Below are positions 23,622 through 46,868 of a DNA stretch of 47,559 nucleotides, one piece after another. Each line of letters opens with the position of its first letter. Positions within the stretch are counted from its first letter, which is position 1. Location of the stretch: contig JADLEQ010000073.1 of the NCBI GenBank assembly GCA_020846005.1, forward strand, positions 1 through 47,559, written 5' to 3'. The stretch is from Polyangiaceae bacterium. GTDB taxonomy: Bacteria; Myxococcota_A; Polyangia; Polyangiales; Polyangiaceae. The notes beneath the pieces were generated by a model. It had not been told where the DNA came from, searched no databases, and saw nothing but the letters and a program-made list of their open reading frames with translations. A program made the translations under genes and the position numbers.

Positions 23622-23649
23622 GCCCGACGACCCCCTCGGCGTGAGCCAG

Positions 23650-23689
23650 CTGCGGCCCTGCACGGAGACGTGCGGGGCCGCAGGCTTTT
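23650..23689 (+). terminator. Intrinsic terminator of the Cys-rich protein gene
   Basis: Arms 23650-23664 and 23669-23683 form a 15-bp stem with one G:U pair and a GAGA loop, followed by GC and four T. This is the clearest intrinsic terminator in the window. The remaining bases to 23784 hold no gene that I can see. Confidence 0.85.
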
Positions 23690-23784
23690 GTGCGGCTGCT
23701 GGCCCGGGCGGAGCGCGCTCGTAGCGCCGGTCGGGCCGGTCCGCAGGCGCCGGCTCGGCGGCGCCGCCCGGCCTGCGCGGCCGC

Positions 23785-24759
23785 TCAGCGCGCCCGCGCG
23801 CGCAGCGCCGCGACGCGCGAGCACGCCTCGGCGCCGCGCGCGGCGAACGAGGCGTCGACCCTTGCGCGGGCGCGGAGCGCCTCCCGGGCGCGACCCGCGA
23901 GCGCCAGGTCGCTGCAGACGAGGAGCGCGTCACAGCCGGCCTCCACGGCGCGCACGGCGCTCTCCTCGACCTCCATCCGGTCGGCGAGCGCGCGCATCTC
24001 GAGATCGTCGGAGAACAGCACGCCGCGGAACCCGAGCTCGCCGCGGAGCAGCTCGCTCGCGATGCGGCGGCTGAGCGTGGCGGGGACACCGGGGTCGAGC
24101 GCGTCGTAGACGACGTGGGCGCTCATCAGCGACTCGAGCCCACGGCTCGCCGCCTCGCGGAACGGGAGCAGCTCCACCGCGTACAGCCGCGCCGCGTCGA
24201 GTTCGACCCGAGGCAGCGCGAGGTGGCTGTCCTCATGCGTGTCGCCATGCCCGGGGTAGTGCTTGCCGCACGCGAGCACGCCCGCCTCAGCGAGGCCCTC
24301 CGCCAGCGCCAGCGCCATCCGCGCGACGCGCTCGGGATCGCGCCCGAAGGAACGATCCCCGATGATCGGGTTCGCGGGGTTCGAGTCGACGTCGAGCACC
24401 GGCGCGAAGTCGAGGTTGAACCCTGCCGCGGCGACGGACTCGCCGATCGCGCGCCCCATCCGCCGGGCGACCTCGGGATCCCCCGTGTCGCCAACCTCCC
24501 GCATCGGTGGCGGTCGGAACGCGGGGGGCGGGAGGCGCACGACGCGCCCGCCCTCCTGATCGATCGCGAGCAACGGTGGCGGCCCGCTGGGCACGGCCGC
24601 GCGCGCCGCCGCGGCGAGCGCCTGCGCTGCCTCGAGCGTGGGCAGGTTGCGCTTGAACACGATCACCCCACCGAGCGCGCCCGCGCGGAGGTCCTCGGCG
24701 ACCGCGCTCGGCAGCTCCGTGCCCGGGAAGCCGACGACCAGCAGCGCGCCCGGATCCAT
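23785..24759 (-). CDS. nagZ: Beta-N-acetylhexosaminidase, glycoside hydrolase family 3
   Basis: 324 residues from ATG at 24759. GGGAGG nine bases upstream favours this over the ATG at 24768, which would abut the GGGAGG. NagZ removes GlcNAc from 1,6-anhydro-muropeptides during cell-wall recycling. Family motifs are LAIDQEGGRVVRL, the KHYPGHGDTHEDSH loop carrying the acid/base His, and the nucleophile Asp in FSDDLEM. No signal peptide is seen, as expected for a cytoplasmic enzyme. It is the last gene of the accD-to-nagZ minus-strand group, 61 bases after the permease. Confidence 0.93.
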   Translation of the reverse strand: MDPGALLVVGFPGTELPSAVAEDLRAGALGGVIVFKRNLPTLEAAQALAAAARAAVPSGPPPLLAIDQEGGRVVRLPPPAFRPPPMREVGDTGDPEVARRMGRAIGESVAAAGFNLDFAPVLDVDSNPANPIIGDRSFGRDPERVARMALALAEGLAEAGVLACGKHYPGHGDTHEDSHLALPRVELDAARLYAVELLPFREAASRGLESLMSAHVVYDALDPGVPATLSRRIASELLRGELGFRGVLFSDDLEMRALADRMEVEESAVRAVEAGCDALLVCSDLALAGRAREALRARARVDASFAARGAEACSRVAALRARAR

Positions 24760-24820
24760 GGCGCGCATCCTCCCAGAATCGCCGACCCAAAGGAAGCTCG
24801 CGGTGGAACCTCCGGGCGCG

Positions 24821-26205
24821 CTAGCGAGCCCCGCCGCCCAACAGGTGAGCGGGGTCGGTGCGCGCCGCGCGCAGCGCGGGGAGGAGCCCGCCCAGCACCG
24901 CGAACAGCACGGCGTAGCCTACCCCGAGCGCCACCAGCCAGGCGGGGAGCTCGAAGAAGGACTCCGGCTTGTAGGGGAAGTCGGGGAGATCGGTGCGGGC
25001 GCGCGCGTCCGCCAGCCGCGTCGCGACCCACGCCAGCGCGACCCCGGCGCCCCCACCGAGCAGGCCGACGGTGACCGCGAGCGCGAGCAGCCACGCCCGG
25101 ATGTCTCCCGCGCTCGCCCCGACGGCGCGGTAGAGCCCGATCTCGTGGCGGCGGTCGGCGACGAGCGCGCGGAACGTGTGGCCGATGTTGAGCGCGGCCA
25201 TGCCCAGGACGACGGACGCGACGAGGAACAGCAGCGCGAGCACGCCGCTCACCAGGACGCTCACGTCGCGGGCTCGCGTGTCCGCCGGGACGAGCCCGTG
25301 GCGACTCCCCGCGGCCAGCACCGCCGCGGTGTCCGCCGGCGAGGCGACCCGCACGACGACGCTCGACCAGCGCGTGGCGGCGGCTTCGCCCCCGTACTCG
25401 CGGTTCCAACGCTGCACGACCGCCAACGGCAGCGTGACCCCCAGGTCGATCGCCTTGCCGGAGACGCCGACGACCCGGATCCGCGCGCGGCGCGGCGCGC
25501 CCAGGCGCGCGACCCCGAGCATCGACGATCCCAGGGAGAGCTCGAACGGGACGCCCTCTGCCCGCGCGAGCAGCGTGCCGGCGACCGGCGGCAGGCCGTG
25601 CTGGGGCGCCACGGCGTGATCGAACACCTCGACTAGCTTACGGCTGACCAGGCCCGGCACCGGCGCCGAGCAGCGGCCGCCGGCGGAGCCGCTCGCGCGC
25701 TCGCAGTACTCGTCGCGGCCGCAGGCGGCGTCCTCGACGCACGGCTCGCCGGGGCGGGCGAGCGGATCCTGGAAGCGCTCACGGAGCTCGGGCTCGATGA
25801 GCGCTGGGTCCACGCCGTCGCCCACCATCTCATGGGAGATCAGCTCTCGACCGAGGAGCTCCTTTCCGCCGCGCGCGCTCGACGGGAACCTGAAGCGCAG
25901 CTTGCCGAAGACCTCCCGCGCCCCGGGCGTCGCGCCGAGCTCGGTCGCGACCGCCGGCAGGACTCCGTCGATCGGCGCCTCGCCGCCGAGCAGCGCGAGC
26001 AGCCCGGCCGAGGTGCGCGGCGGCTCGAGCTCGATCACGTCGAGCGGGAACACCTCGGACAGCAGCACCCGGCGCGCGCCGAGCCCGAGCGCGAGGAAGA
26101 ACACCAGCGCCGCGGTGCCGACGACGATGCCGGCGCCAGCGCTGGCGAGCGCACCTCGCGTCCGCGCGACATCCCGCCCGACCAGGGCCGCGAGCGCTCG
26201 CGGGC

Positions 26206-26209
<4 letters not shown>
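24821..26209 (-). CDS. MacB/LolC-type ABC transporter permease with Cys-rich insert
   Basis: 462 residues. Topology: one membrane helix near 22-42, a periplasmic domain of about 240 residues, then three helices near 300-325, 360-380 and 415-445 with the FtsX-like motif HEIGLYRAVGAS. This is the MacB/LolCE permease layout, acting on lipoproteins, peptides or envelope substrates. The periplasmic domain contains CVEDAACGRDEYC and a further Cys nine residues on, a small disulphide module not usual for MacB. GTG at 26209 overlaps the ATPase stop as GTGA. The substrate cannot be told. Confidence 0.88.
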
Positions 26210-26919
<710 letters not shown>

Positions 26920-26923
26920 CCGA

Positions 26924-28291
26924 TCACCCGCCCGTGTCGGCGCGCGCGGCGGCTTCCATCGTCGCGATCGCGCGATCGAGCGCCGCCGGCGACGGCCCCT
27001 CGACCATGAGCCGCAGCTTGGGCTCCGTGCCGCTCCAGCGGACGAGCACCCGGCCGTCCCTGCCGAGCTCGGCCTCGACCCGGGCGATCGCCGCGCCGAG
27101 CTCGGGCATCGTCTCGAGCGGGCGGCGCGACGCCAGCGTGAGGCTCTGGAGCCGCTGCGGCACCCGTTCCATCACCGTGGCGAGCTCGGAGAGGGGCCGC
27201 CCCTCGCGGACCACGATGGCGAGCACCTGGAGCGCGGCGACGATGCCGTCTCCCGTCCGCGCGTGCTCGAAGAAGACGAGGTGCCCGGACTGCTCCCCGC
27301 CGAACCCGTAGCCGCCGCGCCGCATCTCCTCGACGACGTATCGGTCGCCGACGGCGGTGCGCCGCACCTTGCCGCCGGCGCGCTCCACGGCGCGCTCGAG
27401 CCCCATGTTGCTCATCACCGTGGCGACCAGCGTCCGCTTCGGCAGGCGCCGCTGGGCGAGCAGGCGGGTGGCGCAGAGCGCCATCAGGGCGTCGCCGTCC
27501 ACCACGTCGCCGCGCTCGTCCACCACGATGACGCGATCGGCGTCGCCGTCGAGGGCGATCCCGAGCCGCGCCTTGCGCTTGCGCACCTCGTTCTGGACAT
27601 GCTCGGGGTGGAGCGCGCCGCAGTCGTCGTTGATGTTCTTGCCGTTGGGCCGCACGCCGAGGCTCACGACCTCGGCCCCCAGCTCCTCGAAGATACGCGG
27701 CGCGACCTTGTACGCGGCGCCGTGGGCGGCGTCGACGACGATCTTGACGCCGTCGAGCGCGAGCTCGCGTGGGAAGGTCGCCTTGGCGTACACGATGTAC
27801 CGCCCCGTCGCGTCCTCCAGGCGCTCGGCGCGGCCGACGCGCGCGCCCGAGAACCTCGGAGAGTCGAGCTCGGTGCCCGCGAGGAGCGACTCGATGGCGG
27901 CCTCCTCGGCGTCCGGCAGCTTGAAGCCGTCGGGGCCGAAGATCTTGATCCCGTTGTCCGCGTACGGGTTGTGGCTCGCGCTGATCACCACGCCCGCGTC
28001 GGCGCGCATCGACTCCGTGAGATTCGCGATCGCCGGGGTCGGCAGCGGGCCACAGAGGATCACGCGCCCCCCCATCGCGCAGACGCCGGCGGCGAGCGCT
28101 GTCTCGAGGAGGTAGCCGGACAGGCGGGTGTCCTTCCCGATCAACACCCGGGGCGGGCGCGCGCGCCCCCGCCGCGCGACGTGGGCGATGGCTCGCCCCA
28201 GGCGGAGTACCAGCTCAGGAGTCATCGGCTCCTCGTTGGCGCGGCCTCGGATGCCGTCGGTGCCGAACAGCTTGCGGGGAGGGCTCGTCAC
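26924..28291 (-). CDS. glmM: Phosphoglucosamine mutase
   Basis: 455 residues; interconverts glucosamine-6-phosphate and glucosamine-1-phosphate on the route to UDP-GlcNAc. The N-terminus is [13 protein letters not shown]. The phosphoserine loop is VISASHNPY (catalytic Ser about 106). The metal loop is ALDGDADR, the sugar loop GGEQSGH and the phosphate loop [13 protein letters not shown] at 28291 overlaps folC by GTGA. Pairing with folC and accD supports an envelope-precursor and growth operon. Confidence 0.97.
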
Positions 28292-29517
28292 GAGTCGGCG
28301 GCCGGATCGGTGGGGAGACCAAGGAGGTGGGCGCGCGCAGCGCCGACCAGGTACGTGGAGCCCGTCACCACGACCAAGCCGCGCTCGCCGACGATGGCGC
28401 GCGCGCGGGCGAGCGCCTCGGGGATCGAGCTGGCGACCTCGCCCGTGAAGGCCCGGGCCATCTCCTCCGGCGGGACGGCTCGCGCCACCGGCGGCGCGAC
28501 GAACACCCGGTGCGCGGCGGCGTGCTCGAGCCGATCGAGCATGGCGCGCCAGTTCTTGCCGCGCAGCGCGCCGAACACCAGCACCACGTCCCGCCTGGAC
28601 TCGATGCCTTCGAGGCTCGAGGGGTCGAGGATGTGCGAGAGGATGACGGCGCCGTCCGGGTTGTGGGCGCAGTCGAGCATCGTGAGGTCGAGCCCGTTTC
28701 GGTGGAGGAGCTCGTTCCGCCCCGGCCAGGTCGTGGCCTCGATCCCGGCCGCGAGCGCCTCCGGGGAGAGCCCGAGCTCGCGCCCGACGGTCGTCGCGAC
28801 CGCGAGGTTCGTCCCGAGCATCGAGATCCGGGGGTAAGCGAGGGACGCGCCCGGCGTGGGCTCGGCGCTCCCGAGCGGCACGATGCGCGCCCCGACCTCG
28901 GCGACCCGCGCCTCGAGGGCAGCCCGCGCGTCCGGATGGAGCTTGCCGTGCACCACCGCGGAGCCGGCCTTGATGATGGCGACCTTCTCCTCCGCGATCG
29001 CGCGCAACGTGTCACCGAGCTCCGCCTGGTGATCGAACGCGACGCGGGTGAGGACGGCTACACGGGGGGGAGGGATGACGTTGGTGGCGTCCAGGCGGCC
29101 GCCCAGGCCCACCTCGAGCACCGCGAGATCCACCCCGGCGTCCCGGAACGCGAGGAACGCCGCCAGCGTCGCAACCTCGAAGAAGGTGAGCGCCGGGTCG
29201 AGCGCGAGCACGCGCTCGAGGAGCGGGAGGAGGACCTCGTCCGGGATGGGCGCGCCGTCGACCTGGATCCGCTCGGCGAACCGCACCAGGTGCGGCGAGG
29301 TGTACACGCCGACCCGCCGCCCGCCGGCGCGGGCCATCGAGGCCACGAACGCGCACACCGAGCCCTTGCCGTTCGTGCCGGCGACGTGCACGGCCTCGAA
29401 CGCCCGCTCGGGGTGCCCGAGCGCCGCGCAGGCCGCTTCCATGCGCTCCAGGCCGAGCTGGCGCTCCGCGGGGATGCGCGCGTAGACGCGCTCGAGGACA
29501 CCGGCGAGCCCCCTCAC
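28288..29517 (-). CDS. folC: Dihydrofolate synthase/folylpolyglutamate synthase
   Basis: 409 residues from GTG at 29517, which overlaps the accD stop; the longer open frame upstream is antisense-like Arg/Pro sequence inside accD. FolC is a Mur-ligase-like ATPase adding glutamate to dihydropteroate and folates. Motifs are [15 protein letters not shown] (P-loop), [48 protein letters not shown] and GALRGKNW. The accD-folC order is conserved in many proteobacteria. Confidence 0.96.
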
Positions 29518-30365
29518 GGGGTGCCCCCGGGGGTGAGGAGCTCCACCAGGTGGGCGAGCGTCGCCTTGAGATTGGGGCGCGGGACGATGAGGTCCACCAT
29601 CCCGTGCTCGAGCAGGAAGTCCGAGCGCTGGAAGCCCTCGGGGAGCGTCGTGCGCAGGGTGCTCTCGATGACGCGGGGCCCCGCGAACCCGATGAGGGCG
29701 TTCGGCTCCGCCACGTTCACGTCCCCGAGCAGCGCCGTGCTCGCGGCGACGCCGCCGGTCGTCGGGTGGAGGAGCACGCTGAGGAACGGACGCCCCGCGT
29801 CCCGGAAGCGCCGGAGCGCGGCGACCGTCTTCGCCATCTGCATCAGGCTGAGGATCCCCTCCTGCATCCGGGCGCCGCCCGACGCGTGCAGGAGGATCAC
29901 GGCCATCCGCTCGGCGGCGGACCGCTCGAACAGCCTGGCGATCCGCTCTCCGACCACGCTCCCCATGCTGCCCCCCATGAACCCGAAGACGAAGCAACCG
30001 TACCCCACGGGGTGGCCGCCGATCCGCGCGCGCCCGATCTCGATGGCGTCCGTCCGCGAGGTCGTGCGCTGCGCGCGGGCGAGCCGCTCTCGGTAGGGCT
30101 TGCCGTCGTCGAACTCGAGCGGGTCGGTCGGCGCGATGTGCTCATCCCACCGCTCGAGCGCCGCCTCGTCGAGGAGCAGCTCCCGCCAGCGGTCGACGGG
30201 CAGGACGTGGTGCCACCCGCACGCGCCGCAGACGTTGAACGCCTCGGCGAGGCGCTCGCGCGTGACGACCGCGCCGCACCCCTCGCACTTGTGGAACACC
30301 CCCTGGCCGAGCGACCGCTTCTCCCCGGGCCGTGCCTGGGCTGGGGTCTTGTCGGGGAGGGTCAC
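29514..30365 (-). CDS. accD: Acetyl-CoA carboxylase carboxyltransferase subunit beta
   Basis: 283 residues. The N-terminal zinc ribbon has CEGCG and CGACG pairs, followed by the carboxyltransferase crotonase-like core: VGYGCFVFGFMGGSMGSVVGE, LHASGGARMQEG and LLHPTTGGVAAST. It carboxylates acetyl-CoA to malonyl-CoA together with AccA (not in the window). GTG at 30365 is the first gene of the minus-strand series accD-folC-glmM-ATPase-permease-nagZ, so its promoter should lie in the 161-base divergent gap to 30527. Confidence 0.96.
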   Translation of the reverse strand: MTLPDKTPAQARPGEKRSLGQGVFHKCEGCGAVVTRERLAEAFNVCGACGWHHVLPVDRWRELLLDEAALERWDEHIAPTDPLEFDDGKPYRERLARAQRTTSRTDAIEIGRARIGGHPVGYGCFVFGFMGGSMGSVVGERIARLFERSAAERMAVILLHASGGARMQEGILSLMQMAKTVAALRRFRDAGRPFLSVLLHPTTGGVAASTALLGDVNVAEPNALIGFAGPRVIESTLRTTLPEGFQRSDFLLEHGMVDLIVPRPNLKATLAHLVELLTPGGTP

Positions 30366-30526
30366 GGAAGCGGGGGAGCTCAGGGGCGTCTCGTCGGGCC
30401 GAGGACGCTCGGAGAGTGGAACAGGCGCGGCCGGCGATCAACGGGTCCCGCGCGGCCCTCCGCGCGCGCCTGCGCGCCGGGTGAGCCCTTGTCGACCGGG
30501 CCGAATCGCGTGAGCATCCCGTCCGG

Positions 30527-33139
30527 GTGACGACGCCGACGACCTCCCCCGAGTCGAACGACGGCCGGCACGGCCCGCTGGTCGGGCGCGAGGGCGTCCG
30601 CACGGCGCTGCGCGCAGCCCTGGGGCGCGCCCGAGAGCCCGGGGCGCGCGTGACCTGCCTCACCCTGCTCGGCCCGACCGGCAGCGGCAAGTCCTGCCTC
30701 CTGGACGAGGCCGCCGCCCAGGCGGAGGGGTTCACCGTGTACCGGGCGACAGCCCAAGGCAGCAGCCGCAGCCACGGGCTGGTGGCGCGCCTGCTGCGCG
30801 CGCGCTTCGAGCTGCCCGAGGGCCTGGACGAGGACGACGCGCGAGCGCGGATCCGGACGGCAGCGGCGCAGGTCCTCGGCGACCGGAAGGTGGAGGACGT
30901 CTGCTTCTTCCTGGGCCAGCTCGTCGACCTCCCGTTCCGCGGCAGCCCGCTCACCCGCGCGGTGGCCGACGATCCCGCGGAGGCGCGCGCCCTGCAGCGG
31001 GCGATCGTCAGGAGCTTCGTCGAGGCGGACGCCTCGCGCGCGCCGGTGCTCATCGTCGTCGACGACCTCGAACGCGCCGACGCCGACTCGCTCGATCTCC
31101 TCGGCGGCTTGCTCGAGGCCGCCGAGTCGCCGCTCGTCGTGTTGGCGGCTGCGCACCCGGATCTGGTGACGCGCCACCCGGAGTGGCTCGCCCGCGGCGA
31201 GGAGCGCCACGTCCGGTACGACGTCGGGCCGCTCAGCGCCGCCGCCGCGTCGCGCCTCGCCCAGGAGCTGCTGTCACCCTGCGTCGGCGGGCCGCCGCCG
31301 TCGCTCGTCGACGCGGCGGTCAACCTCGCGGGGGGCAACCCCGGGCTGCTCCGGCAGATGGTGCGGCTCTTCCATGACGCCGGCGTGCTCGAGCCCGCGG
31401 AGGAGGGCGCCGACGCGGGCTGGCAGGTTCACCTCGACCGCCTGGCGAGCGTGCGGCTCCCGCTCACCGTCGAGGACGCCATCGAGGCGCGCGTCGCCGC
31501 GCTGAGCGTCGACGATCGCCTGCTGCTCGAGCGGGCAGCGACCGTCGGGTCCGTGTTCTGGCTCGGGGTCGTGGTGTCCCTCGGCCGGGCGGCTCGGGCG
31601 GCGCCCGAGGTGTGGTCGCGCGCCGACGACGCCGATCGCGCCGAGATCCGCGATCGACTCTCCGGCCTCGTCGCGCGCGACTACGTGCTCGAGCTGCCGG
31701 ACTCCACGTTCTCCGGCGAGATCGAGTACGTGTTCAAGCACAACCTCGAGCGCGAGCGGCTCGCGCGCCTCCCGTCACCGCGAGATCAGCAGCACTGGCA
31801 CCAGGTGACGGCCGACTGGCTCGCCCAGCGCGCCAACGTTCGCTCCCAGGAAGAGACGAGCGCCATGCTCGCGTTTCACCTCGAGCGGGCTGAGGCCACG
31901 TCGCTGGCGGCGCTCGCCTGGCTGGACGCCGCCGCGGCCGCGCGTCGCGGGTTCGCGGCGCGCAAGGCGCACGAGCACTATGCCCGTGGCCTCGAGCTGC
32001 TCGGCACCGCCGACGCGGCCCGCGAGATCGCCGCGCTGCACGACCACGGCGACGTGCTCGTGATGCTGGGCCGCCCCGACGACGCGCGCGCCTGCTTCGT
32101 CAAGATGCTCGCGCTCGCCCATCGCCTCCAGCTCCCGTCGAAGGGGGGCGCCGCGCACAACCGCATCGGGCGCCTCCATCGCGACATCGGCAACTTGACG
32201 GAGGCGCGGCGGCACTTCGACGCCGCGCTCGAGCTGTTCGAGTCCGCGGGCGACGAGCGGGGCGTCGGCGCGTGCCACGACGACATCGGCAAGCTCCTCT
32301 GGCTGCGTGGCGAGTACGGAGACGCGCTCGAGCGCATGCTCCAGGCGCTCGACGTGCGGAAGAAGCTCGGCGACCGCCGATCCATCGCGCTCAGCCTCAA
32401 CAATATCGGCCTGGTGTGGCGCGACCACGGGCGCCCGGCGAAGGCGCGCGAGGCCTTCGAGGCGGCGCTGACGATCCGGCGCGAGATCGAGGACCCGATC
32501 GGCGTGGCCCAGAGCCTCGACGAGCTCGCACGCCTGCACTGCGACCAGGGGGAGCCGGAGCGTGCGCTCCCGCTCTTCCAAGAGGCGCTGGAGGTCGCGC
32601 GGGAGATCGGCGAGCGCAACCGCATCGCGGTGATCCTCACGGATCTGGGGGACACCCATCGGCGCCTCGGGCGCACGGAGGAGGCGCTGCGGATCCTCGG
32701 CCAGGCGGAGGAGCTGTGCGACGAGCTCGGGGACAAGCTCCAGCTCGCGGAGGCGAAGCGCTGCCTCGCGGAGGCGCACCTGCGCGCGGGGAGCCTCCGG
32801 CCCGCGCGGGAAGCGATCAAGCACGCGGTCGACCTCTTCGGGCAGGTGCGGAGCCGCCCCCACCTGGCGATCGCGCTGCGCACCCTCGGTGAGATCACCG
32901 GAGCTGGCGCGTGGGGGCAGGAGCACACGGTGAAGGCGGTGGACTACTTCATGCGCTCGATCGCCATCAGCAAGGACATCGGCAACGAGCTCGAGATCGC
33001 GCGCAGCTACCGCGCGTTCGCGGACTTCGTGCGGGGTTCGTCGCAGTACCAGGCCAACCAGGAGATCCAGCACGAGGCCGACAAACTGGCGACCATGGCC
33101 ACCGAGATCTTCGAGCGCTACAGCGCTGCGCGCGACTGA
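30527..33139 (+). CDS. STAND-like AAA ATPase with C-terminal TPR repeats
   Basis: 870 residues from GTG at 30527. The N-terminus HGPLVGREGVRTALRAALG leads to Walker A LLGPTGSGKS (Lys55) and Walker B APVLIVVDDLERADADSLDLL, as in AfsR/MalT-type signal ATPases. GGNPGLLRQ marks the usual NPLL region. A winged-helix-like region lies at about 310-420. From about 450 to 860 there are eight or more TPR units, for example GDVLVMLGRPDDARACFVKML and IGLVWRDHGRPAKAREAFEAAL. No HTH, kinase or cyclase output domain is attached, so output probably goes through a partner protein. The RavA-like ATPase starts five bases downstream. Confidence 0.88.
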   Translation: MTTPTTSPESNDGRHGPLVGREGVRTALRAALGRAREPGARVTCLTLLGPTGSGKSCLLDEAAAQAEGFTVYRATAQGSSRSHGLVARLLRARFELPEGLDEDDARARIRTAAAQVLGDRKVEDVCFFLGQLVDLPFRGSPLTRAVADDPAEARALQRAIVRSFVEADASRAPVLIVVDDLERADADSLDLLGGLLEAAESPLVVLAAAHPDLVTRHPEWLARGEERHVRYDVGPLSAAAASRLAQELLSPCVGGPPPSLVDAAVNLAGGNPGLLRQMVRLFHDAGVLEPAEEGADAGWQVHLDRLASVRLPLTVEDAIEARVAALSVDDRLLLERAATVGSVFWLGVVVSLGRAARAAPEVWSRADDADRAEIRDRLSGLVARDYVLELPDSTFSGEIEYVFKHNLERERLARLPSPRDQQHWHQVTADWLAQRANVRSQEETSAMLAFHLERAEATSLAALAWLDAAAAARRGFAARKAHEHYARGLELLGTADAAREIAALHDHGDVLVMLGRPDDARACFVKMLALAHRLQLPSKGGAAHNRIGRLHRDIGNLTEARRHFDAALELFESAGDERGVGACHDDIGKLLWLRGEYGDALERMLQALDVRKKLGDRRSIALSLNNIGLVWRDHGRPAKAREAFEAALTIRREIEDPIGVAQSLDELARLHCDQGEPERALPLFQEALEVAREIGERNRIAVILTDLGDTHRRLGRTEEALRILGQAEELCDELGDKLQLAEAKRCLAEAHLRAGSLRPAREAIKHAVDLFGQVRSRPHLAIALRTLGEITGAGAWGQEHTVKAVDYFMRSIAISKDIGNELEIARSYRAFADFVRGSSQYQANQEIQHEADKLATMATEIFERYSAARD

Positions 33140-33144
33140 GCCCG

Positions 33145-34305
33145 GTGTCCAGCCTCACCCAGCGTCTTGGCGAGGTCGCTCGCACCCTCGACCAGCGGTT
33201 CGTCGGCAGGAGCGAGGCGGTTCGCCTGCTGCTCATCTCACTGGTCGCCCGTGAGCACGCGGTGCTCATCGGGCCGCCGGGCACGGCGAAGAGCGCGCTG
33301 GTCCGCACGCTGGCGGAGCTCGTCGACGCGCGGTACTTCGAGTACCTCCTCACGCGCTTCACCGAGCCGAACGAGGTCTTTGGGCCGGTGGATCTCGAGG
33401 CGTTTCGCCGCGGCGAATACCGGCGGCGCACGGCGGGGATGCTCCCGGAGGCGGAGGTGGTCTTCCTGGACGAGGTCTTCAAGAGCAACAGCGCGATCCT
33501 GAACTCGCTGCTCTCGCTCCTCAACGAGCGCCGCTACACCTCGGGGGGGGTGGTCCTCGAGTGCCCGCTCATCAGCGTCTTCGGCGCGAGCAATGAGGTG
33601 CCGTCCGATGACACGCTCGGCGCGCTGTTCGATCGGTTTCTCCTCCGGATCCGAACGGAGTCGCTGGACGCCTACCACTTTGCGGAGCTGCTCGACCGCG
33701 GCGTGGCCGAGGAGGTCCGCCGGCTCCGCCGCGAGCCCGTCCGTCCGCTCGTCACCGGGGCAGAGCTCGGGACGCTGATGCAGCGCGTCGGCGCCGGCCT
33801 CGAGCTCTCGAGCGCGCTGCTCTCGACCTACAAGGGGCTCGTGTTCCAGCTCCGCGCGGAGGGGATCTCCTTCAGCGACCGCCGGGCCGTGAAGACGTTG
33901 AAGCTCCTCGCGGCCTCCGCGCTCGTGGACGGCCGCGAGCGCGCGGACGAGGGCGATCTGTTCGTCCTCGAGCACGTGTGGAGCTCGGAGGAGCAAATCC
34001 CGCTCCTGCGGGCGCTGGTGCGTCCCATCGTCGAGGCCTTCCACACCGAGCATCCGGGTCGACGGCGCGTGGGCGCCCTCGGGATGGGGCTGGACGCCAT
34101 GGCCGCCGAGATCGAGCGGATCCGGCAGGTGCTGACCGGCGCCACGGCCCCGAGCGATCTCCAGCTCTTCGCGCAGCTCAAGGCGCTCGGCGAGCTGCGG
34201 ATCGCGCTCTCGACGCAGCAGGATCCACAAGCGCGCGCGCTCGAGCAGCGCGTGGCGCAGCTCCTCGACGCGTCGCTCCGCGGCGGCCGCTTCGCCCAGC
34301 CGTGA
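33145..34305 (+). CDS. RavA-like MoxR family AAA+ ATPase
   Basis: 386 residues from GTG at 33145. It has FVGRSEAVRLLLISLVAREH, Walker A IGPPGTAKSALVR, Walker B EAEVVFLDEVFKSNSAILN, SLLNERRY, FGASNEVP (sensor 1) and LFDRFLLRI. These match the RavA branch of MoxR chaperone ATPases, which work with a VWA partner (ViaA) to remodel membrane or redox proteins. It is shorter than E. coli RavA (~500). No ViaA gene follows; the next gene is convergent, 12 bases away. Co-transcription with the STAND/TPR gene is very likely. Confidence 0.9.
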   Translation: MSSLTQRLGEVARTLDQRFVGRSEAVRLLLISLVAREHAVLIGPPGTAKSALVRTLAELVDARYFEYLLTRFTEPNEVFGPVDLEAFRRGEYRRRTAGMLPEAEVVFLDEVFKSNSAILNSLLSLLNERRYTSGGVVLECPLISVFGASNEVPSDDTLGALFDRFLLRIRTESLDAYHFAELLDRGVAEEVRRLRREPVRPLVTGAELGTLMQRVGAGLELSSALLSTYKGLVFQLRAEGISFSDRRAVKTLKLLAASALVDGRERADEGDLFVLEHVWSSEEQIPLLRALVRPIVEAFHTEHPGRRRVGALGMGLDAMAAEIERIRQVLTGATAPSDLQLFAQLKALGELRIALSTQQDPQARALEQRVAQLLDASLRGGRFAQP

Positions 34306-34317
34306 GCGCCCGGCGCC

Positions 34318-35114
34318 TCAGGCGTCGCAGCGCTCCACGAACTCGCGGAGCTCCTCCGCCACCGCGGCGCGCTCCACGTCGCGGGTGAGGATATGCCGTG
34401 AGCGGGGGAAGATCCGCACGCGGACGTCCGGGGACCCAGCGAGGCGCGCGATCTCGGCGGCGTTAGCGACGGGACACACGCGATCGCGTGCGCCGTGCAG
34501 CACGAGCAACGGCGCCCGGATCCCAGGGAGGCGCGACCGCGCGCGCGGCCCGGCAGCTCGCACGCTGATCGCGGCGTGCACCGGCTGGGTCTCGTAGGTG
34601 GTGTGGGTGCGCCTCGCCTCGGGATCGCCGAGGTCCGCGCCGGCCTTGGGGACCGCGAAGTCCGGCAAGCGGAGCCGATCGACCGCGGCGAGCGCGAGCG
34701 AGGGGAAGGGCGCAGCCAGCCGCGTCGCCGCGGCGAGGAGCGCGACCCCCGCTACCCGGTCGGGACGGGACGCCGCGAGGTGGATCGCGAGCAGCGCGCC
34801 CATGGAGAGCCCGACGACGACCGCGCGCTCGCGCTCGGGCGCCACCTCGTCGAGCGCGAGCTCCGCGGCGCTCGCCCAGTCGGCCCAGCGTGTGCGGGCG
34901 AGCTCCGTCGCGTGGGTGCCATGCCCGGGGAGCAGCGGCGCGAAGGCGCGCCGCCCGACCGCGCGCGCGGCCGACACTGCGATCTCGACCTCGAGGGGCG
35001 TCCCCCCGAACCCGTGCAGCGCGAGGACGCCCGGCGCGAGCCCGGGCGCGCGCCGGGGGCTCGGGTCGCCGGGCCCGACCAGCGCGCCGCGTGGGTGCGC
35101 GCCGCTCTGGCGGC

Positions 35115-35118
<4 letters not shown>
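34318..35118 (-). CDS. Alpha/beta hydrolase, carboxylesterase/monoacylglycerol lipase type
   Basis: 266 residues from GTG at 35118 (GTGA overlap with the regulator gene). The fold signs are VLALHGFGGTPLEVE (oxyanion region), LLPGHGTHATE, the nucleophile elbow VVGLSMGALLA, the Asp strand LLVLHGARDRVCP and the catalytic His in PRSRHILTRDVE. This pattern resembles Est30-like carboxylesterases that cleave short to medium acyl esters. The substrate is unknown. Being co-translated with an NtrC-type regulator, it may belong to a stress or envelope lipid response (inference). Confidence 0.88.
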
Positions 35119-36563
<1,445 letters not shown>

Positions 36564-36630
36564 GGCGCCCCGCAGGATAGCTCCCCTCGGGGCGCCGCCA
36601 CCAGGGGCACCCCCTCCGCCCGGCCCCGCC

Positions 36631-37437
36631 TCAACCGCCGGCCGGCGGGGCGCCCATCCGTGCGAGGTAGCGCCGCGCGGGGAGGACGAACGCGCTCTCC
36701 GGGTGCTCGCGGAGCACCCGATCGAAGGCGCGTCGTGCGCGGCGTGGCTGCTTCATCATCAGGTGCGTCTCGCCGAGCAGCACGAGCGCTTCCGCGTCGA
36801 GGCCGGAGCCGGGGAACTCTTGGAGGCAGTACTCGATGCGCCGCAGGGCGGCCGGGAACTGGCCGCGATCGCGGTAGAAGCGCGCCACGTAGAGCTCGTG
36901 CCGGGCGAGTACGCCCGTCACCACCTCGAGCATGTAGACGAGCTCGCGCTCGTGCTCGTACCCGGGGAAGCCCTCGAGGAAGGCGCGCAGCGAGGCGTAG
37001 GCGTCCTGCACCGTGCCGAGATCGCGCTCCTCGAGCGGCGGCAGAAGCAGCGTCGGCTCGCTCTCGAGGAAGAGCGCCTTCGCGACGCGATACTTCGCGT
37101 ACGGGACCTCGGCGTCGTTCGGATAATCCGCGACGAACGCCTTGTAGGCGCTGATCGCCTCGGGGTACTTCTGCTGGCGGAACTCCGCGTCCGCGATGCG
37201 CAGATCGGCGAGGCGCGCCCAGCGGCTGTAGCCGTACTTGCGCTTCACCTCCTGGAAGAGCGTGATCGCCGTCTCCCAGTCGCGGTCGAAGTACGCGTCG
37301 AGCGCCTCGTCGTACGCGCGCCGGGCGTTCTCCGAGTACTCGAGCGCGCCGCCCGGCGGGGGGCCGGCGTGGCAGCCGACCGCGACGGGCGCGACCGCGA
37401 GCGCGATCCGAAGGGCGGCCGAGCGGAGGAGTCTCAC
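36631..37437 (-). CDS. bamD: BamD-like TPR lipoprotein of the outer-membrane assembly machinery
   Basis: 268 residues from GTG at 37437. The signal RLLRSAALRIALAVAPVAVGC ends in a lipobox Cys at 22. TPR-like helical pairs follow: ARRAYDEALDAYFDRDWETA, YPEAISAYKAFVADYPND, VPYAKYRVAKALFLE and YLQEFPGSGLDAEALVLLGE-type repeats (with Cys for Leu). The VPYAKYRVA segment and size match BamD/YfiO, the essential lipoprotein linking BamA partners. The gap to the downstream regulator gene is 67 bases. It diverges from greA. Confidence 0.85.
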   Translation of the reverse strand: MRLLRSAALRIALAVAPVAVGCHAGPPPGGALEYSENARRAYDEALDAYFDRDWETAITLFQEVKRKYGYSRWARLADLRIADAEFRQQKYPEAISAYKAFVADYPNDAEVPYAKYRVAKALFLESEPTLLLPPLEERDLGTVQDAYASLRAFLEGFPGYEHERELVYMLEVVTGVLARHELYVARFYRDRGQFPAALRRIEYCLQEFPGSGLDAEALVLLGETHLMMKQPRRARRAFDRVLREHPESAFVLPARRYLARMGAPPAGG

Positions 37438-37748
37438 GGGGCGCTTGCGTACCCGAGCGGGGAGGGGAGAGCAACGCGCTGCCGCCAGCCGCCGCGCGCC
37501 GCGGAGGGCGTGGAGGGCCGGGGCGGCCGGGGCCGGTTGCCAGGGTCGGAGATTCGGGGCATAGCTAGCCGCGCGCGGAACCCGGCCGGGACGGCGAGTC
37601 CGGCGGAGTCGCCACGCACACAGGCGCCGCCGGAGCCCCCTGCGTGCGCCGTCGAGTCCCCGGCGCCTCCGCCCCGCCCGCTGACCGGCCGACGGCGGTG
37701 GAGGGCCGCGGCCCGGCCCATGCCCCCCACGATGCTACGAGGCCCCCG
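37438..37748. other. Divergent intergenic region between bamD-like gene and greA
   Basis: This 311-base gap contains a rightward promoter candidate at 37537-37565. The rest is GC-rich with no supported small gene or clear RNA structure. Confidence 0.45.
37537..37565 (+). promoter_or_regulatory. Candidate greA operon promoter
   Basis: TTGCCA (37537-37542, five of six to consensus), 17 bases, CATAGC (37560-37565, three of six). It would give a greA leader of about 175 nt and drive greA-sulfatase, with yfgM and bamB further downstream. Confidence 0.35.
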
Positions 37749-38225
37749 ATGAGCGTCGAGAAGGTACCGATGACCCCGCAGGGCGCACAGAAGCTGCGCG
37801 AAGAGCTCGTCCGCCTGCGCGAGGAGCGCCCGAAGATCTCCCGCGAGATCGGCGTCGCCCGGGAGCACGGCGATCTCTCCGAGAACGCCGAGTACCACGC
37901 CGCCAAGGAGCGTCAGGGGATGGTCGAGGCGCGCATCAAGGACCTCGAGGACAAGCTCGCCCGCGCAGAGATCATCGATCCGGCCAGCCTGAGCGGCGAC
38001 AAGGTGCGCTTCGGCGCGACGGTGCAGCTGTTGAACTGCGACACCGAGGAGGAGGTCAGCTACCAGATCGTCGGCGCGGACGAGGCCGATCTGAACCGCG
38101 GCACCATTTCGATCTCCTCGCCGCTGGCGCGCGCGTTGATCGGACGCGAGCCGGGCGACGAGGTCGCCGTCACGCTGCCCGGCGGCAAGCGACGCTACGA
38201 GGTGGTGGCCGTCGAGTTTCGGTGA
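37749..38225 (+). CDS. greA: Transcription elongation factor GreA
   Basis: 158 residues, the standard GreA length. The N-terminal coiled coil begins [18 protein letters not shown] and carries the acidic tip [15 protein letters not shown], which enters the RNA polymerase secondary channel and stimulates transcript cleavage. The C-terminal FKBP-like domain includes [36 protein letters not shown] and [11 protein letters not shown] at 37749 matches the family start. It overlaps the membrane sulfatase gene by GTGA, an unusual partner. Confidence 0.97.
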
Positions 38226-41200
38226 GCACGTCCGGTTCCTCGTCGGGTCCGGCTCCGCCCGGAGCGCCGTGGGTCAGCGTCGCCGCCGACGTGGTCGGGG
38301 GGATCGCCGCGGCCTGGCTCCTCGCGGCGCTCGAGATCGCCGTCGTCGGCCTCGAGATCGCGCCCTGCCTCGCCAGCTCCGAGGAGGGCTCCATCGCGCT
38401 CGCCGCGCTCGCGCCGATCCTGATCGCGGGGGCCGGCTCGCTCGGTGCGGCAGGAGGGCTGCTGGTCGCGCTCGCGCGCCGGGCCGAGCGTCACCGGCCG
38501 TCCGCCGCCTTCGCGGCCGTCTGGGTGGGCGCGGCGGCGGCTGCCGTCGCGTGGGGCGTCGGCTCGGGGCGCCACCTGGCGGCGCCCGGCGCCCGAGAAG
38601 GCTTCTCGCTGGGCGTCGGAGCGCTGGTGGGCGGCGGTTTCGCCGCGGGCGCTCGGCGCCTCGGGCGGGAGCTGCGAGAGCGTCCCGAGCGCGTCGCGAT
38701 CGCGGCCGCGATCGCCGTCGGGCTCGTCCAGCTCGCGAACCGGTTCGTGCTGGTCCGGCTCTACCCGGCGTTCCACCAGGGGTTGGCGGCGTCGGCGTGC
38801 GTCGGCGCAGCGTTCGTGGCGCCGGCGTTCGTGGCGCCGGCGTTCGTGGCGCCGGCGAACCTGGGGAGCCGTCTCCGCGCGTGGGCCGGGGCCGCGGCGC
38901 TGGCGATGGCGATCGCCGCTGCGCTGATCCCGCGCTCGGCGCGCGGGCTCGCGGGCTTCGACAACGTCCGCTTCCTGCTCCTCGACGCGGCGCCGCTCGG
39001 GGGCGAGGCGGTGCGGCTCGCCGCCGCGATCGCGCCGCCCCCCCCGCTCGAGCCGGCCCAGTGCGACCCCGGCAGCGCGTGCGCGCCGATCGAAGGGCGA
39101 CCGAGGACGCTCGACTGGTCGGAGCGCGACCTGCTCGTGGTCACCATCGACGCGCTGCGCGCCGACCACCTCGGCGCGTACGGCGACGCGCGCGGCCTGA
39201 CGCCCGCCCTGGACGACCTCGCGCGGACCGGCGTGAGGTTCGAGCGCGCGTACGCCGCCACGCCCCACACGTCGTACTCGGTCGTGTCGCTGATGACGGG
39301 CAAGTACATGCGACCGCTGCTCCTGCAGGGCGCCGGTGAGGACAGCGACACGTGGGCCGGCCTCCTCCGGGCGTACGGGCGGAGGACGGCCGCGTTCTAC
39401 CCGCCCGCGGTCTTCTTCATCGACGCCGAGCGCTTCGAGCCGTTCCAGCGCCGACAGCTCGACTTCGAGTACGCGAAGGTGGAGTTCGCCGAGGGGGCGC
39501 AGCGGGTCCAGCAGGTCCAGGCGTACCTCGAGGCGCAGCCTCGCGAGCAGCGGCTGTTCGTCTGGGTGCACCTGTTCGCGCCGCACGAGCCCTACGTGCG
39601 GCACGAGCGCTTCGATCACGGCGAGGACGACCGGGGCCGCTACGCCTCGGAGGTGGCCTTCGCCGACGAGACGACGGGCGCCCTCGTCCGGGCGATGCGA
39701 GCGGTGCGCCCCGAGGCGGTCGTGCTGGTCACCGCCGATCACGGCGAGGAGCTGGGCGACCATGGAGGGCGCTATCACGGCACCACCGTCTATGAGGAGC
39801 AGGTGCGGGTCCCGCTGCTGGTGAGCGCACCGGGCGCCCTCGCGCCCCGCGTGCTGCGCGCGCCCGTTCAGACGATCGATCTGCTCCCGACGGTGCTCGC
39901 GGCCGTGGGCGTGCCGCGCCCGCCTCGGATCCGGGGGCGCGACCTCGGCGGGCTCCTCACCGGCGCCGACGCCGACGACCCCGCGGGCGGCTTCGCGTTC
40001 GCGGAGACGGACGAACAGACGATGCTGGCCGAGGGCCCCTGGCGCCTCGTCTGCGCGCGGCGGCTCGGCGCGTGCCGGCTGTTCGACCTCGCGGCGGACG
40101 CGGCCCAGACGCGCGATCTCGCGGCGGCCGAGCCCATGCGCCTGGAGACGCTACGGCGGAGGAGCCGTGAGCTCGGCGCCTCGCACGGTCGCTACGAGTC
40201 GACCGGGCTGCGCGCGGAGGGCAAGGGGTGGCCAGCGCCGATCCTGCGTGGGCTGTCTGGCGACGGAGACGCCGCCGAGGAGATCGCGCCGCTGCTCGAC
40301 GACGCCGATCGGGAGATCCGGCGCAAGGCGGCCGAGCTCGGCTTCCGGCTCCGGCGGGCCGAGCTGGCGCCCGCGCTCCGCCTGGCCCTGGTCCGCGACG
40401 AGGACGCCACAGTGCGCGGGTGGGCGGCGCTCGCGCTGACGCGGCTCGGCGAGGGGGCGCCGCTCGTCGTCGAGCTGCTCGCGAGCGAGGACATCGCGTG
40501 GCGGCGACTCGCCGCCCTCGCGCTCGCCGAGGCGGGGGATCCTCGCGGCGAGGAGACGCTGCTCGCCTGGTGGCGAGACACCGCTGCGCGCGATTTCGAC
40601 CGCTCCCGGGAGCTCATCGCCGCGTTCGGGAGGATCCGATCGCGCGCGGCCGTGGGCGAGCTGCTCGACGCGCTCGGCGACCTCCGGCTCCGCCCGCACC
40701 TGGCGGCGGCGCTCGCCGCGATCGACGAGCCGGTGGCGCGGCCCGCGCTCGTGCGCGCGCTCGCCACCGAGCGCTACCACGGGACCCGGCGCGCGCTGGC
40801 CGAGGCGGTCGTGGCGCTCGGTGGCGGGCCGGAGCTCGCCGGGCCGCTCGCATACTTCCTGGGTGTGCCCGATCCGCTCCCGGGAGGGCTCGAGCTGGCG
40901 GAGCGCGCCCGGATCGTCGATCGCATCGGCGGCCCCGACACCGCGACGCTGGCGCGCCTCGCGCGCTCGACCGGCGAGCCCCAGTCGGCTCGGGTGATCG
41001 TCCCGAAGGGGTCCCAGGCGCGCCCCGGCGTGTGGCTGTGGATCCGCGGGCGGAACGCCCGCGCCGAGCCCAGCGCGGTTCGGATCGGGGTCGGCGAGCC
41101 GCTGCCCGGCGAGGCGGGGCGCTGGTCCCGGTCGCGAGTCCACGAGGTGCCGGTGCCGCCCGGAGCCTTCGAGCTGCGGGCGGCGGTCCCGCCGGATCTC

Positions 41201-41389
41201 GGCGTCCGCTCAGGCCGCCCGGCGACCCTGCGCGTCGCGACGGGGCAGGGGGTGACCCTCACCTCGCTCGCCGTGCTGCCGGAGGAGCCCGAGCTCCCGC
41301 CCCCGCCGCCGTCGCCCTGGCGCCCGGGCGACGCCGCACCGGCCGCCTCCGCGGCGCCGCCGCCCGGGCGCGCCGGGGCAGGGGAGTGA
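38222..41389 (+). CDS. Membrane-anchored sulfatase/phosphatase-superfamily protein fused to HEAT repeats
   Basis: 1055 residues from GTG at 38222. About six or seven hydrophobic helices occupy residues 18-240. A sulfatase-like domain (~300-640) follows, with the metal site [16 protein letters not shown] and [18 protein letters not shown]. The nucleophile region reads [16 protein letters not shown]; the CxPSR formylglycine motif of true sulfatases is missing and a Thr or Ser is in its place. Thus a phosphotransferase or hydrolase of the alkaline phosphatase superfamily is more likely than an arylsulfatase. Residues ~680-930 form HEAT-like repeats ([34 protein letters not shown]). A C-terminal beta region and Pro/Ala tail complete it. 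Substrate unknown. Confidence 0.87.
38810..38854 (+). repeat. Three perfect 15-bp tandem repeats in the sulfatase gene
   Basis: Units at 38810-38824, 38825-38839 and 38840-38854 are identical and encode three Ala-Phe-Val-Ala-Pro blocks in the membrane region. Perfect identity marks a recent in-frame slippage event. Confidence 0.9.
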
Positions 41390-41453: not shown

Positions 41454-42803
41454 GTGTCCGAGGACGACCCCGAGAAGCGCTCCAAGCGAGCCGAGCGACG
41501 CAAGCAGCGAGCGGAGGCCGACGCGCCGCCCGCAGGCGAGGTGCACGACGAGTCGGACGGCGCCGAGCGCCCCGACGACGACTCCGAGCCGGATCCCGCG
41601 GGGGACGAGGCGTCGGCGGAGGGCGGCTCACCCGAGGAGGAGCCCGCGCCCCGCCCACGCAACCGCCGGGAACGCCGCGCGGCGAAGGCGCGCGGCGAGG
41701 AGGAGCTCGACGCCGAGGAGGAGCGGCTCGCGCGCGACCGAAACCGGCGGATGCGGCAGCAGCGCTCGAAGGAGCGCCAGCGGGAGCGCACCGCCGCGGT
41801 GGCCGCCGGCCTCGACGCGAGCGAGATGGTGGACGACGCCTTCACGCGATTCACTGCCGCTTCCGGCAAGTTCCTCCGGCAGAACGCGACGGCGCTCCAG
41901 TGGGCCGCGCTGCTGGCGGTCGCGGGCGGGCTCGGGTGGACGATCTGGTCCTGGCGCGCCGATCGCGTCGCGGAGGCGACCACGCTCGACCTCACCAAGG
42001 GCCTCGCGGCCGACACCGACGCCACGATCCGAGCGCGCGTCGAGCGGGCGCAGGCTGCGACGGACTACGGCTTCCAGGTCGAAGAGGTATACCCTGTACC
42101 GCCGTTCCCGGACGAGACGGCGCGCCTCCAGGCGGCCGAGGCCGGGTACCGCGCGACGACCGCGGGCTCGGGCCCAGCGGCCGTCGTGGCGAAGCTCGGG
42201 CTCGCCGGGGTGCTCTACGACCAGGGGAAGTGGGACGAGGCCAAGAGCACCTACGAGGCGGTCAAGGCGACCGACCTGGCGCGGCGGGACGTGGACGTGC
42301 GGGCGCGCTGCATCGAGGGGATCGCCTTCGCCCTGGAGGCGAAGGGCGACGCCGACGCGGCCGAGAAGGTGTTCCGTGAGCTGGAGGCGCTCGAGGTGCC
42401 CCAGTTCACCCTCCTCGGGCTCTACCACCGCGCCCGGCTCACGGTCGCGCGCGGACAGACGGACGCCGCGAAGGCGCTGATCCAGCAGGCGAAGGAGAAG
42501 CTCGACCAGACGAAGGACGCCGCCGTCCCCACGGCCTACCTGCAGCGCCAGCTCCAGGAGCTCGAGGCGGTCGTCGACCCTGCGGTCGGGGCCGCGCTCG
42601 CAGCCGGGATGGGTGAGCTCACGCCGGAGACCCTCGCCAAGCTCGAGCAGATCGAGAAGCAGGTGAAGGAGGACCCGACCAAGCTCCAGGAGCTGCTCCG
42701 GTCGTTGGGCAAGCTCGAGGTGCCCCGGGATCTGAACTCGCCGCCTCCGGCACCGGCGCCGGTACCCCCCGCGCCGATCCCTGCGCCGGTGCCGTCGCCG
42801 TGA
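41454..42803 (+). CDS. YfgM-like TPR membrane protein
   Basis: 449 residues from GTG at 41454. A charged, disordered N-terminus of about 140 residues (Glu/Arg/Asp-rich) precedes one membrane helix, ALQWAALLAVAGGLGWTIWSW. The C-terminal part is TPR-like: AAVVAKLGLAGVLYDQGKWDEAKSTYE, then repeats, coiled segments and a Pro/Ala tail. E. coli YfgM is a SecYEG-associated chaperone encoded just before bamB, and the same order is seen here. The long acidic/basic N-terminus is an addition. It overlaps the next gene by GTGA. Confidence 0.8.
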   Translation: MSEDDPEKRSKRAERRKQRAEADAPPAGEVHDESDGAERPDDDSEPDPAGDEASAEGGSPEEEPAPRPRNRRERRAAKARGEEELDAEEERLARDRNRRMRQQRSKERQRERTAAVAAGLDASEMVDDAFTRFTAASGKFLRQNATALQWAALLAVAGGLGWTIWSWRADRVAEATTLDLTKGLAADTDATIRARVERAQAATDYGFQVEEVYPVPPFPDETARLQAAEAGYRATTAGSGPAAVVAKLGLAGVLYDQGKWDEAKSTYEAVKATDLARRDVDVRARCIEGIAFALEAKGDADAAEKVFRELEALEVPQFTLLGLYHRARLTVARGQTDAAKALIQQAKEKLDQTKDAAVPTAYLQRQLQELEAVVDPAVGAALAAGMGELTPETLAKLEQIEKQVKEDPTKLQELLRSLGKLEVPRDLNSPPPAPAPVPPAPIPAPVPSP

Positions 42804-44053
42804 CGCCGCTCGGGGGTCGCCCGTCGCCCCGCGCGTCGGCGCTGCTCGGCCTGGCGGGGATCGCCGCCGCGTGCAGCTCCATCCGCGGCGCGAACCCCGA
42901 GCTCCCCACGTGGGTGCACCGGCCGTCCGGGGCGCTCGCGGTCATCTTCTCGCGCCCGGTCGTCGCCGAGTCGCGCCGCGTCGGCGAGCCGTGGGAGCTC
43001 GGCCGCCCGGAGCTCGACACCCAGGGGCGCAGGGTATTCGTCGGATCGAGCGATCGCGGGCTCTACGCGCTGCGGGCCCAGGACGGGCAGCCGCTCTGGC
43101 GCTTCGAGACGCTCTCGTTCGTGCAGTCGGCGCCCCTCTACGACCCGACCGAGGACGTCGTCTACTTCGGCTCCAACGACGGCGCGCTCTACAAGGTGCG
43201 CGCGCTGGATGGCGAGCTGCTCTGGCGCTTCGCGACGAACGCCGAGATCGCGCGCCGGCCGGTGCTCGAGGGCGGCACGCTCTACGTCGCGAACGCGAAC
43301 GACACCGTGCTCGCGCTCGACGCCCGGACGGGCGCGCAGCGCTGGGTGCAGCACCAGGCGCCGGCCCAGGGCATGGAGATCGCGGGCCACTCCGGGGTGG
43401 CCGTGTGGCGGGGCGCTGTCTACGCGGCGTTCAGCGCGGGGACGGTCGCCGCCTTCGATGCCGTGACCGGCGACGAGCGGTGGCCGCCGGTCGATCTCGC
43501 CGCCGAGGCCGAGGCGCAGCTCGGCGAGGTGCCCGCCTACCTGGACGTGGACACGACGCCGGTGCCCGACGCGGCGCCGAGCGGCCCCGTCGTCTACGTG
43601 GCGGCGTACGTCGGCGGCGTGCACGCGCTCGACGCCGACGGCGGCAACCCCGTCTGGGCGAACCCGGCCGTGGCCGGCGCGACGGGCCTCACGCTCTACA
43701 CCGAGCCCGCGCACACCGGCCGCGACGGCGCCCCGCGGGAGCCGACGCGGCTGCTGCTGGTCGCTTCGGGGACGAGCGGGCTCTGGGCGCTCGACCCGGA
43801 GACGGGAGCGGAGATCTGGCGCCGCCCGGTGCCCGCGGGGGGGCTCACGGCGCCCGTCCCGTGGCAGGGCGCGCTGCTCGTCTCGTCGAGCACGCTCGGC
43901 CTGTTCCTGGTCTCGCCGCGCGAGGGCGCGGTCATCGACGGCCTCCACACCGGCGACGGCGTCAGTATGGTGCCCGCGGTCCACGGCCGGCGCGCGTTCG
44001 TCACGACGAACGGCGGCCGGCTGCTGAGCCTCTACGTCGCGCCGCCTCGCTGA
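42800..44053 (+). CDS. bamB: BamB-like PQQ-repeat beta-propeller lipoprotein
   Basis: 417 residues from GTG at 42800. The signal ALLGLAGIAAAC ends in a lipobox Cys. Repeated propeller blades follow with the PQQ-repeat ending, such as VFVGSSDRGLYALRAQDGQ, VYFGSNDGALYKVRALDG, LYVANANDTVLALDARTG and VYAAFSAGTVAAFDAVTG. BamB is an outer-membrane assembly lipoprotein in the BAM complex. The yfgM-like neighbour upstream and a bamD-like gene nearby support this. Other PQQ propellers lack this context. It converges on the MBL gene across the dif-like region. Confidence 0.85.
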   Translation: MTPLGGRPSPRASALLGLAGIAAACSSIRGANPELPTWVHRPSGALAVIFSRPVVAESRRVGEPWELGRPELDTQGRRVFVGSSDRGLYALRAQDGQPLWRFETLSFVQSAPLYDPTEDVVYFGSNDGALYKVRALDGELLWRFATNAEIARRPVLEGGTLYVANANDTVLALDARTGAQRWVQHQAPAQGMEIAGHSGVAVWRGAVYAAFSAGTVAAFDAVTGDERWPPVDLAAEAEAQLGEVPAYLDVDTTPVPDAAPSGPVVYVAAYVGGVHALDADGGNPVWANPAVAGATGLTLYTEPAHTGRDGAPREPTRLLLVASGTSGLWALDPETGAEIWRRPVPAGGLTAPVPWQGALLVSSSTLGLFLVSPREGAVIDGLHTGDGVSMVPAVHGRRAFVTTNGGRLLSLYVAPPR

Positions 44054-44106: not shown

Positions 44107-44134
44107 AGTTGACATAATGTTTCTTATGCGATCC
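44107..44134 (-). other. dif: dif-like XerC/XerD recombination site
   Basis: Read on the minus strand, an 11-base arm GGATCGCATAA, a 6-base centre GAAACA and an 11-base arm TTATGTCAACT line up with E. coli dif without gaps: 20 of 28 bases are identical and half of the eight mismatches are in the variable central region. CATAA and TTATG form the expected inner inverted repeats. The spot is an AT-rich island in the gap between two convergent genes. Nothing mobile flanks it, so a chromosome dimer-resolution site is the simplest reading. A TTGACA on the plus strand is part of the arm. Confidence 0.8.
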
Positions 44135-44189: not shown

Positions 44190-44966
44190 TCACACGCGCC
44201 GGGTGTCGAGTTGCTCGTTCAGGCCGAGGACCGAGAGGTTCACGCCCTTGAGCCGCGCGCACTCTTGCTCGACCTCGCTCTGGAACACCGGCTTGATGTG
44301 GTAGAGCAGCGTCGGGAGATCTCGGGGCCGGCCGTACTTCAGCAGGTCCCTGTGGAGCGTCCGCGGCGTATGGTGGCCGCTGATCGTGGCGAGCTTCTGC
44401 TCCCGGTTTGGGAAGCTCACCTCCATGAGGAGCGCCTTGAGGTTCTTCTCGGCGCGGAGCAGCTCCCAGAAGGCGTCCGTGGGGCCGGTGTCGCCGCTGT
44501 ATGCGATGGTGGCGTCGGGCCCCGCGATGATGAAGCCGGCGGAGTCGATGGTGTGATTCACCGCCACGGACTGGACGGCGTAGCCAGCCACGTCGACGCG
44601 CTTGCCGTGCTTCAGCTCGACGAAGCGAATCGTCGGGCGGCTCTTGTTCGGGATGACGGAAAAATCCGGCCACAGCTTGTTGTTGAAGAAGTGCTTCTTC
44701 AGCACCTGGATGGTCGGCCGCGTGGCGGCGACGACGAGCGGCTCGCAGTCGGCCTGGCAGCGGTTATCGGCGATCGTCGCGAGATCCCGGACGTGATCGA
44801 GGTGCGCGTGGCTCACCAGGCACGCCTGAAGCCGGAACTGCGCCTCGAGCTCCAGCCCGCTGGTCAGCGACCCGGCGTCGATGGCCATGCGCTCGTCGAC
44901 CACGAAGGCGCTCGTCCGGTGACGCGGCGTCTCGCCGCCGTGGCAGCCGACGACCCTCAGCTCCAC
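44190..44966 (-). CDS. Metallo-beta-lactamase fold protein, class II cyclic-nucleotide phosphodiesterase type
   Basis: 258 residues from GTG at 44966. Metal ligands are visible in CLVSHAHLDHVRDL (HxHxDH), in VNHTIDSAGFII and in IAYSGDTGPTDAFWE, with a late His in SGHHTP. The HAHLDH motif and spacing resemble class II cAMP phosphodiesterases (yeast PDE1, bacterial CpdP). Usual class II enzymes have Gly or Ser after HxHLDHxx; here the residue is Asp. A general MBL hydrolase is therefore possible. No signal peptide. It lies downstream of groEL on the same strand with a 234-base gap. Confidence 0.8.
   Translation of the reverse strand: MELRVVGCHGGETPRHRTSAFVVDERMAIDAGSLTSGLELEAQFRLQACLVSHAHLDHVRDLATIADNRCQADCEPLVVAATRPTIQVLKKHFFNNKLWPDFSVIPNKSRPTIRFVELKHGKRVDVAGYAVQSVAVNHTIDSAGFIIAGPDATIAYSGDTGPTDAFWELLRAEKNLKALLMEVSFPNREQKLATISGHHTPRTLHRDLLKYGRPRDLPTLLYHIKPVFQSEVEQECARLKGVNLSVLGLNEQLDTRRV

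Positions 44967-45200: not shown

Positions 45201-46868
<1,668 letters not shown>

Follow-up and report, generated by a model that had tools for sequence, protein, structure and literature searches.

The dif site is where a cell breaks and reseals its circular chromosome so that fused sister chromosomes are separated, and an AT-rich sequence of 28 bp in a 47,559-nucleotide stretch of DNA from a Polyangiaceae bacterium (hereafter the window) raises the question of whether it is such a site. The first-pass annotation had proposed as much for an 11-6-11 arrangement at 44107-44134 on the minus strand, and exactly that sequence, GGATCGCATAA-GAAACA-TTATGTCAACT, was recovered there. Comparative evidence makes it almost certain that the sequence is the chromosomal dif, of the XerCD type, of this bacterium.

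The site matches E. coli dif at 20 of 28 bases, as originally counted, with four of the eight mismatches inside the central hexamer. The next-best match to E. coli dif in the window scores 17 and falls at the same place on the opposite strand, and 17 was also the maximum reached in 200 simulated windows (first-order Markov, same dinucleotide make-up). The site was also correctly described as AT-rich, since 18 of its 28 bases are A or T (36% GC) in a window of 74% GC and only 0.03% of the window's 28-mers reach that composition, and as intergenic, lying between a bamB-like gene and a convergent metallo-hydrolase gene (Table 1).

Table 1. Features of the dif locus and the KOPS octamers of the window
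Feature	Position	Strand	Remarks
dif site, 28 bp, GGATCGCATAAGAAACATTATGTCAACT	44107..44134	-	Predicted from its single copy, family-conserved arms and KOPS convergence
XerC-type arm GGATCGCATAA	44124..44134	-	Alignment to E. coli and family sites; by homology
Central hexamer GAAACA	44118..44123	-	Most variable part across family sites
XerD-type arm TTATGTCAACT	44107..44117	-	Alignment to E. coli and family sites; by homology
TPR-type gene	41454..42803	+	Upstream of bamB-like gene; order also often conserved
bamB-like beta-propeller gene	42800..44053	+	Conserved neighbour of dif in the family
Metallo-beta-lactamase-fold hydrolase gene	44190..44966	-	Convergent with bamB-like gene
groEL	45201..46868	-	Often next in order on the hydrolase side of dif
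14 KOPS octamers GGGNAGGG	796..41383	+	All on the left side of dif and directed at it; start positions 796, 10379, 10762, 12405, 14306, 16491, 19356, 28276, 29067, 30354, 34703, 37459, 41243 and 41376
Sole KOPS octamer right of dif	45859..45866	-	Points towards dif

A chromosomal dif was expected to be unique, and the 28-mer does occur once in the source genome (5.70 Mb in 119 contigs, a draft estimated as 99% complete), even with three mismatches allowed. A better dif match elsewhere in the genome, which the first-pass annotation had named as grounds for doubt, was looked for there and none was found. We then scanned 108 Polyangiaceae genomes with a family pattern of 18 arm bases, allowing up to two mismatches. 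The pattern was present in 98 genomes, 80 of which carried exactly one copy, while the reversed control pattern matched in 2 genomes of the same set. Conserved arms around a variable hexamer are what is expected of dif. A similar pattern run on named genomes matched many Polyangiaceae (Sorangium, Polyangium, Labilithrix and others), plus some members of other phyla. Contigs found in both collections assign the scanned family to Polyangiaceae.

The gene beside the site is conserved as well. Thirty-five loci had a readable bamB-like gene together with a single site, and in every one of them the site follows the 3' end of that gene, although at least two pairs of these loci are the same contig obtained through two collections and the bamB similarity is weak at L193 and L004, so that the independent strong cases number about 30. 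The order of the TPR gene, the hydrolase and groEL is also often kept around dif in relatives. Searching by neighbourhood, we sought bamB in nine of the ten family genomes that were negative for the arm pattern and found it in four (G001, G011, G013 and G032). In G001, which belongs to the window's genus, AACGCCGATAAGATAGATTATGTCAACT stands 56 bp after bamB, a diverged dif predicted by its neighbourhood, and G032 has a degenerate site; no dif-like site lay within reach of bamB in G011 or G013. With a conserved neighbour gene, diverged dif sites can be located by synteny. Because a 2009 survey of proteobacteria saw "no apparent specific genetic environment" for dif (PMC2731167), anchoring by bamB at the level of the family is a small new fact. 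An Rfam search of the window returned only two tRNAs, whose genes (47081-47252, plus strand) are close to the end of the contig, 3 kb away from dif.

The suggestion that the window spans the replication terminus gains support from the polarity of KOPS, which converges on dif here and in eleven relatives. All 15 KOPS octamers of the window point towards the site (left 14+/0-, right 0+/1-), with no minus-strand copy to its left; that this genome offers a single right-arm KOPS reflects the end of the contig 3.4 kb beyond dif. Across ten relatives, taking 20 kb on each side, the counts were +44/-6 on the left and +7/-58 on the right, so that 102 of 115 octamers point towards dif (Fisher p = 1.5e-17). 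The one-contig Polyangiaceae genome G033 (11.39 Mb), in samples totalling 0.8 Mb, gave +100/-25 on the left and +17/-116 on the right, and GGGCAGGG had the most consistent bias in both arms among all octamers. When 400 kb around its dif was scanned, the changepoint in KOPS polarity fell between -3372 and +506 bp of the site. Another octamer, GAGCAGGG, was considered as an alternative orienting motif and was dropped, as it had no consistent replichore bias.

The distance from dnaA could be read in five one- or two-contig relatives, the window's own genome being a draft of 119 contigs, and dif lies 34-54% of the way round. In G033, where dnaA starts at base 58, dif is located at 6,190,900, or 54% round; the corresponding values are about 42% in G021, 40% in G108, 41% in G096 and 34% in G111. 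Cumulative GC skew in the window peaks at 44,811, 0.7 kb from dif, with merely 2.7 kb of sequence beyond the peak. Around the dif of G033, the only closed relative sampled for skew, the GC skew is noisy and lacks a clear switch, its best changepoint falling away from dif, and the AT skew changes sign only coarsely. KOPS polarity is a sharper marker of the terminus than GC skew, which is weak or noisy in Polyangiaceae. Together these results provide a well-supported dif and a terminus marker for a family whose large chromosomes show poor GC skew.

The genome also encodes the proteins that such a site would need. Its XerD-like protein has 293 aa and its XerC-like protein 331 aa. Both have the catalytic R, HxxR, H and Y on sequence inspection, and each scores higher with its own equivalog model than with that of its partner, just under the strict NCBIfam cut-offs. 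A single FtsK gamma domain was also detected (96 bits; cut-off 30.6). Besides XerC and XerD, the same genome has a third, distinct tyrosine recombinase of 399 aa (G000:C119:30343-30837, L053).

In E. coli and Vibrio, FtsK is guided by KOPS and activates XerD first, with XerC acting second (reviewed in PMC5357621), and it is from these species that we infer binding, the order of cleavage and dimer resolution here. By analogy, FtsK would be loaded in an oriented manner by KOPS from both arms during division and would translocate DNA until both dif sites of a chromosome dimer are brought together. Each 11-bp arm would be bound by one recombinase, XerC or XerD; XerD, activated by the gamma domain of FtsK, would carry out the first strand exchange and XerC the second, and the dimer would be converted into two monomers.

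The resemblance to the XerCD-dif-FtsK(KOPS) system of E. coli and Vibrio cholerae extends from the 11-6-11 layout, the 20 of 28 identity and near-identical inner arms to the convergence of GGGNAGGG on dif and the presence of genes for XerC, XerD and FtsK gamma. The outer arm bases and the hexamer differ, however, as do the 74% GC content of the window and its weak GC skew. Because KOPS polarity is of the E. coli type, dimer resolution by XerCD and FtsK should be directly testable in cultivable Sorangium and Polyangium. Closer in phylogeny are the dif sites predicted for Myxococcus xanthus (AGGTCCGATAACATGCGTTATGTAAACT) and Anaeromyxobacter (ACGTCCGATAATATGGATTATGGTAACT) by Carnoy and Roten in 2009 (PMC2731167), which belong to the same phylum and have an XerD arm ending in AACT, as in the window; the M. 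xanthus dif matches at 19 of 28 bases at the window site. Their XerC arm reads TCCGATAA, whereas it is TCGCATAA in the window and GCCGATAA in G001 of the same genus. The first-pass annotation knew of no generally used, experimentally defined dif for this group. That statement stands in that no experimental test was found in the literature searched, but it needs the qualification that dif had already been predicted in myxobacteria, and the class of site is accordingly not new for the phylum.

Could the site instead belong to a mobile element, either as a scar left where an Xer-exploiting element (IMEX) attached or as a plasmid-type Xer site? Extra dif-like copies do occur in a few relatives (G017, G025, G028 and G082), but this genome has one copy and no second copy flanking an element, both neighbours are chromosomal in a gene order common to the family, and KOPS converge on the site, all of which leaves such an origin very improbable.

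Just as improbable is that an ancestral dif has become inactive in the window's lineage, a reading suggested by its inversion with respect to its neighbours. The XerC arm faces bamB in 31 of the 35 loci, but the window and three further loci (L018, L120 and L004) have the XerD arm on that side, while G001 (L287) keeps the common orientation. Since both neighbours of the window's site are in place, the flipped segment must lie within the 136 bp between them, and since G001 keeps the common orientation the flip would be recent in the window's lineage, unless it is an assembly error. Both arms are nevertheless intact, KOPS still converge on the site, and the inverted state is shared with those three loci; moreover, the KOPS layout is symmetric about dif, so that inversion would not be expected to cause loss of function. 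The inversion of dif relative to its neighbours in this genome, but not in a member of its own genus, is, with the conserved gene neighbour, the second of two small new facts. We consider it conceivable, though rather doubtful, that the dif of Polyangiaceae is anchored by one gene yet flips in place as a short site, either through traffic of Xer-using elements or through recombination between inverted dif sites.

The first-pass annotation had also placed a hairpin at the end of each convergent gene, a claim that gained no support: both 3' flanks can fold, yet not beyond what dinucleotide shuffles give, and nothing terminator-like was detected. An AT-rich imperfect palindrome arisen by chance, or a terminator common to both genes, would suit the position of the 28-mer between convergent genes and the ability of its inner arms to pair, but this reading is extremely improbable given those folding results and simulated windows that never matched its score, and it is refuted by arms kept in 98 of 108 genomes around a variable centre and by the KOPS results.

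The chromosomal dif of the window's genome, being single, is not a dif module, but multiplied dif-like sites were observed in several relatives. Polyangiaceae bacterium PW6.metabat2.153 (JAPYTK01; G082), with a genome of 6 Mb and recognised by identical site positions on contig 352, has about 157 of them (70 forward, 87 reverse; e.g., L115, L126, L140, L171 and L242-L252), where the reversed control pattern matched none, showing how far such sites can spread in Polyangiaceae. They are part of a repeat, ~92 bp long, that has a hairpin at its 3' end (DNA fold z -2.2), mostly with one or two predicted genes, in either orientation, between neighbouring sites. The chromosomal dif of G082 beside bamB is ATTGCGCATAAGATATATTATGTTAACT; the repeats have equal arms, with GAGACA against GATATA at the centre. 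The common arms would allow XerCD to bind, and the different centre would make exchange with the real dif less favourable. Genes set apart by multiple Xer-type sites recall, on a larger scale, the dif modules of Acinetobacter plasmids (pdif; PMC6449649, PMC11705084), and the repeats are possibly cassettes of a similar kind, but a dispersed repeat that includes dif by coincidence is an equally possible reading. An Rfam search of the repeats gave no match. An integron integrase was considered as the source of the extra copies and rejected: one is present in G084 and a fragment in G028, but none exceeded the cut-off in G082, so that it does not explain the sites there. A tyrosine recombinase on contig C329 of G082 overlaps other reading frames and masked bases.

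Elsewhere in the family, contig G017:C258 has a pair of dif-like sites whose XerD arm is degenerate (L099 and L100; also L101); they are in direct orientation, 21.3 kb apart, and have identical flanks. Between them lie MacB-type exporters, an RND pump and a cation-efflux gene, and the segment is a possible Xer-using element. The multi-copy repeats of G028 (L102-L106) and G025 (L107-L109) are short, about 115-130 bp, and include a dif-like site; their flanks diverge at the repeat ends.
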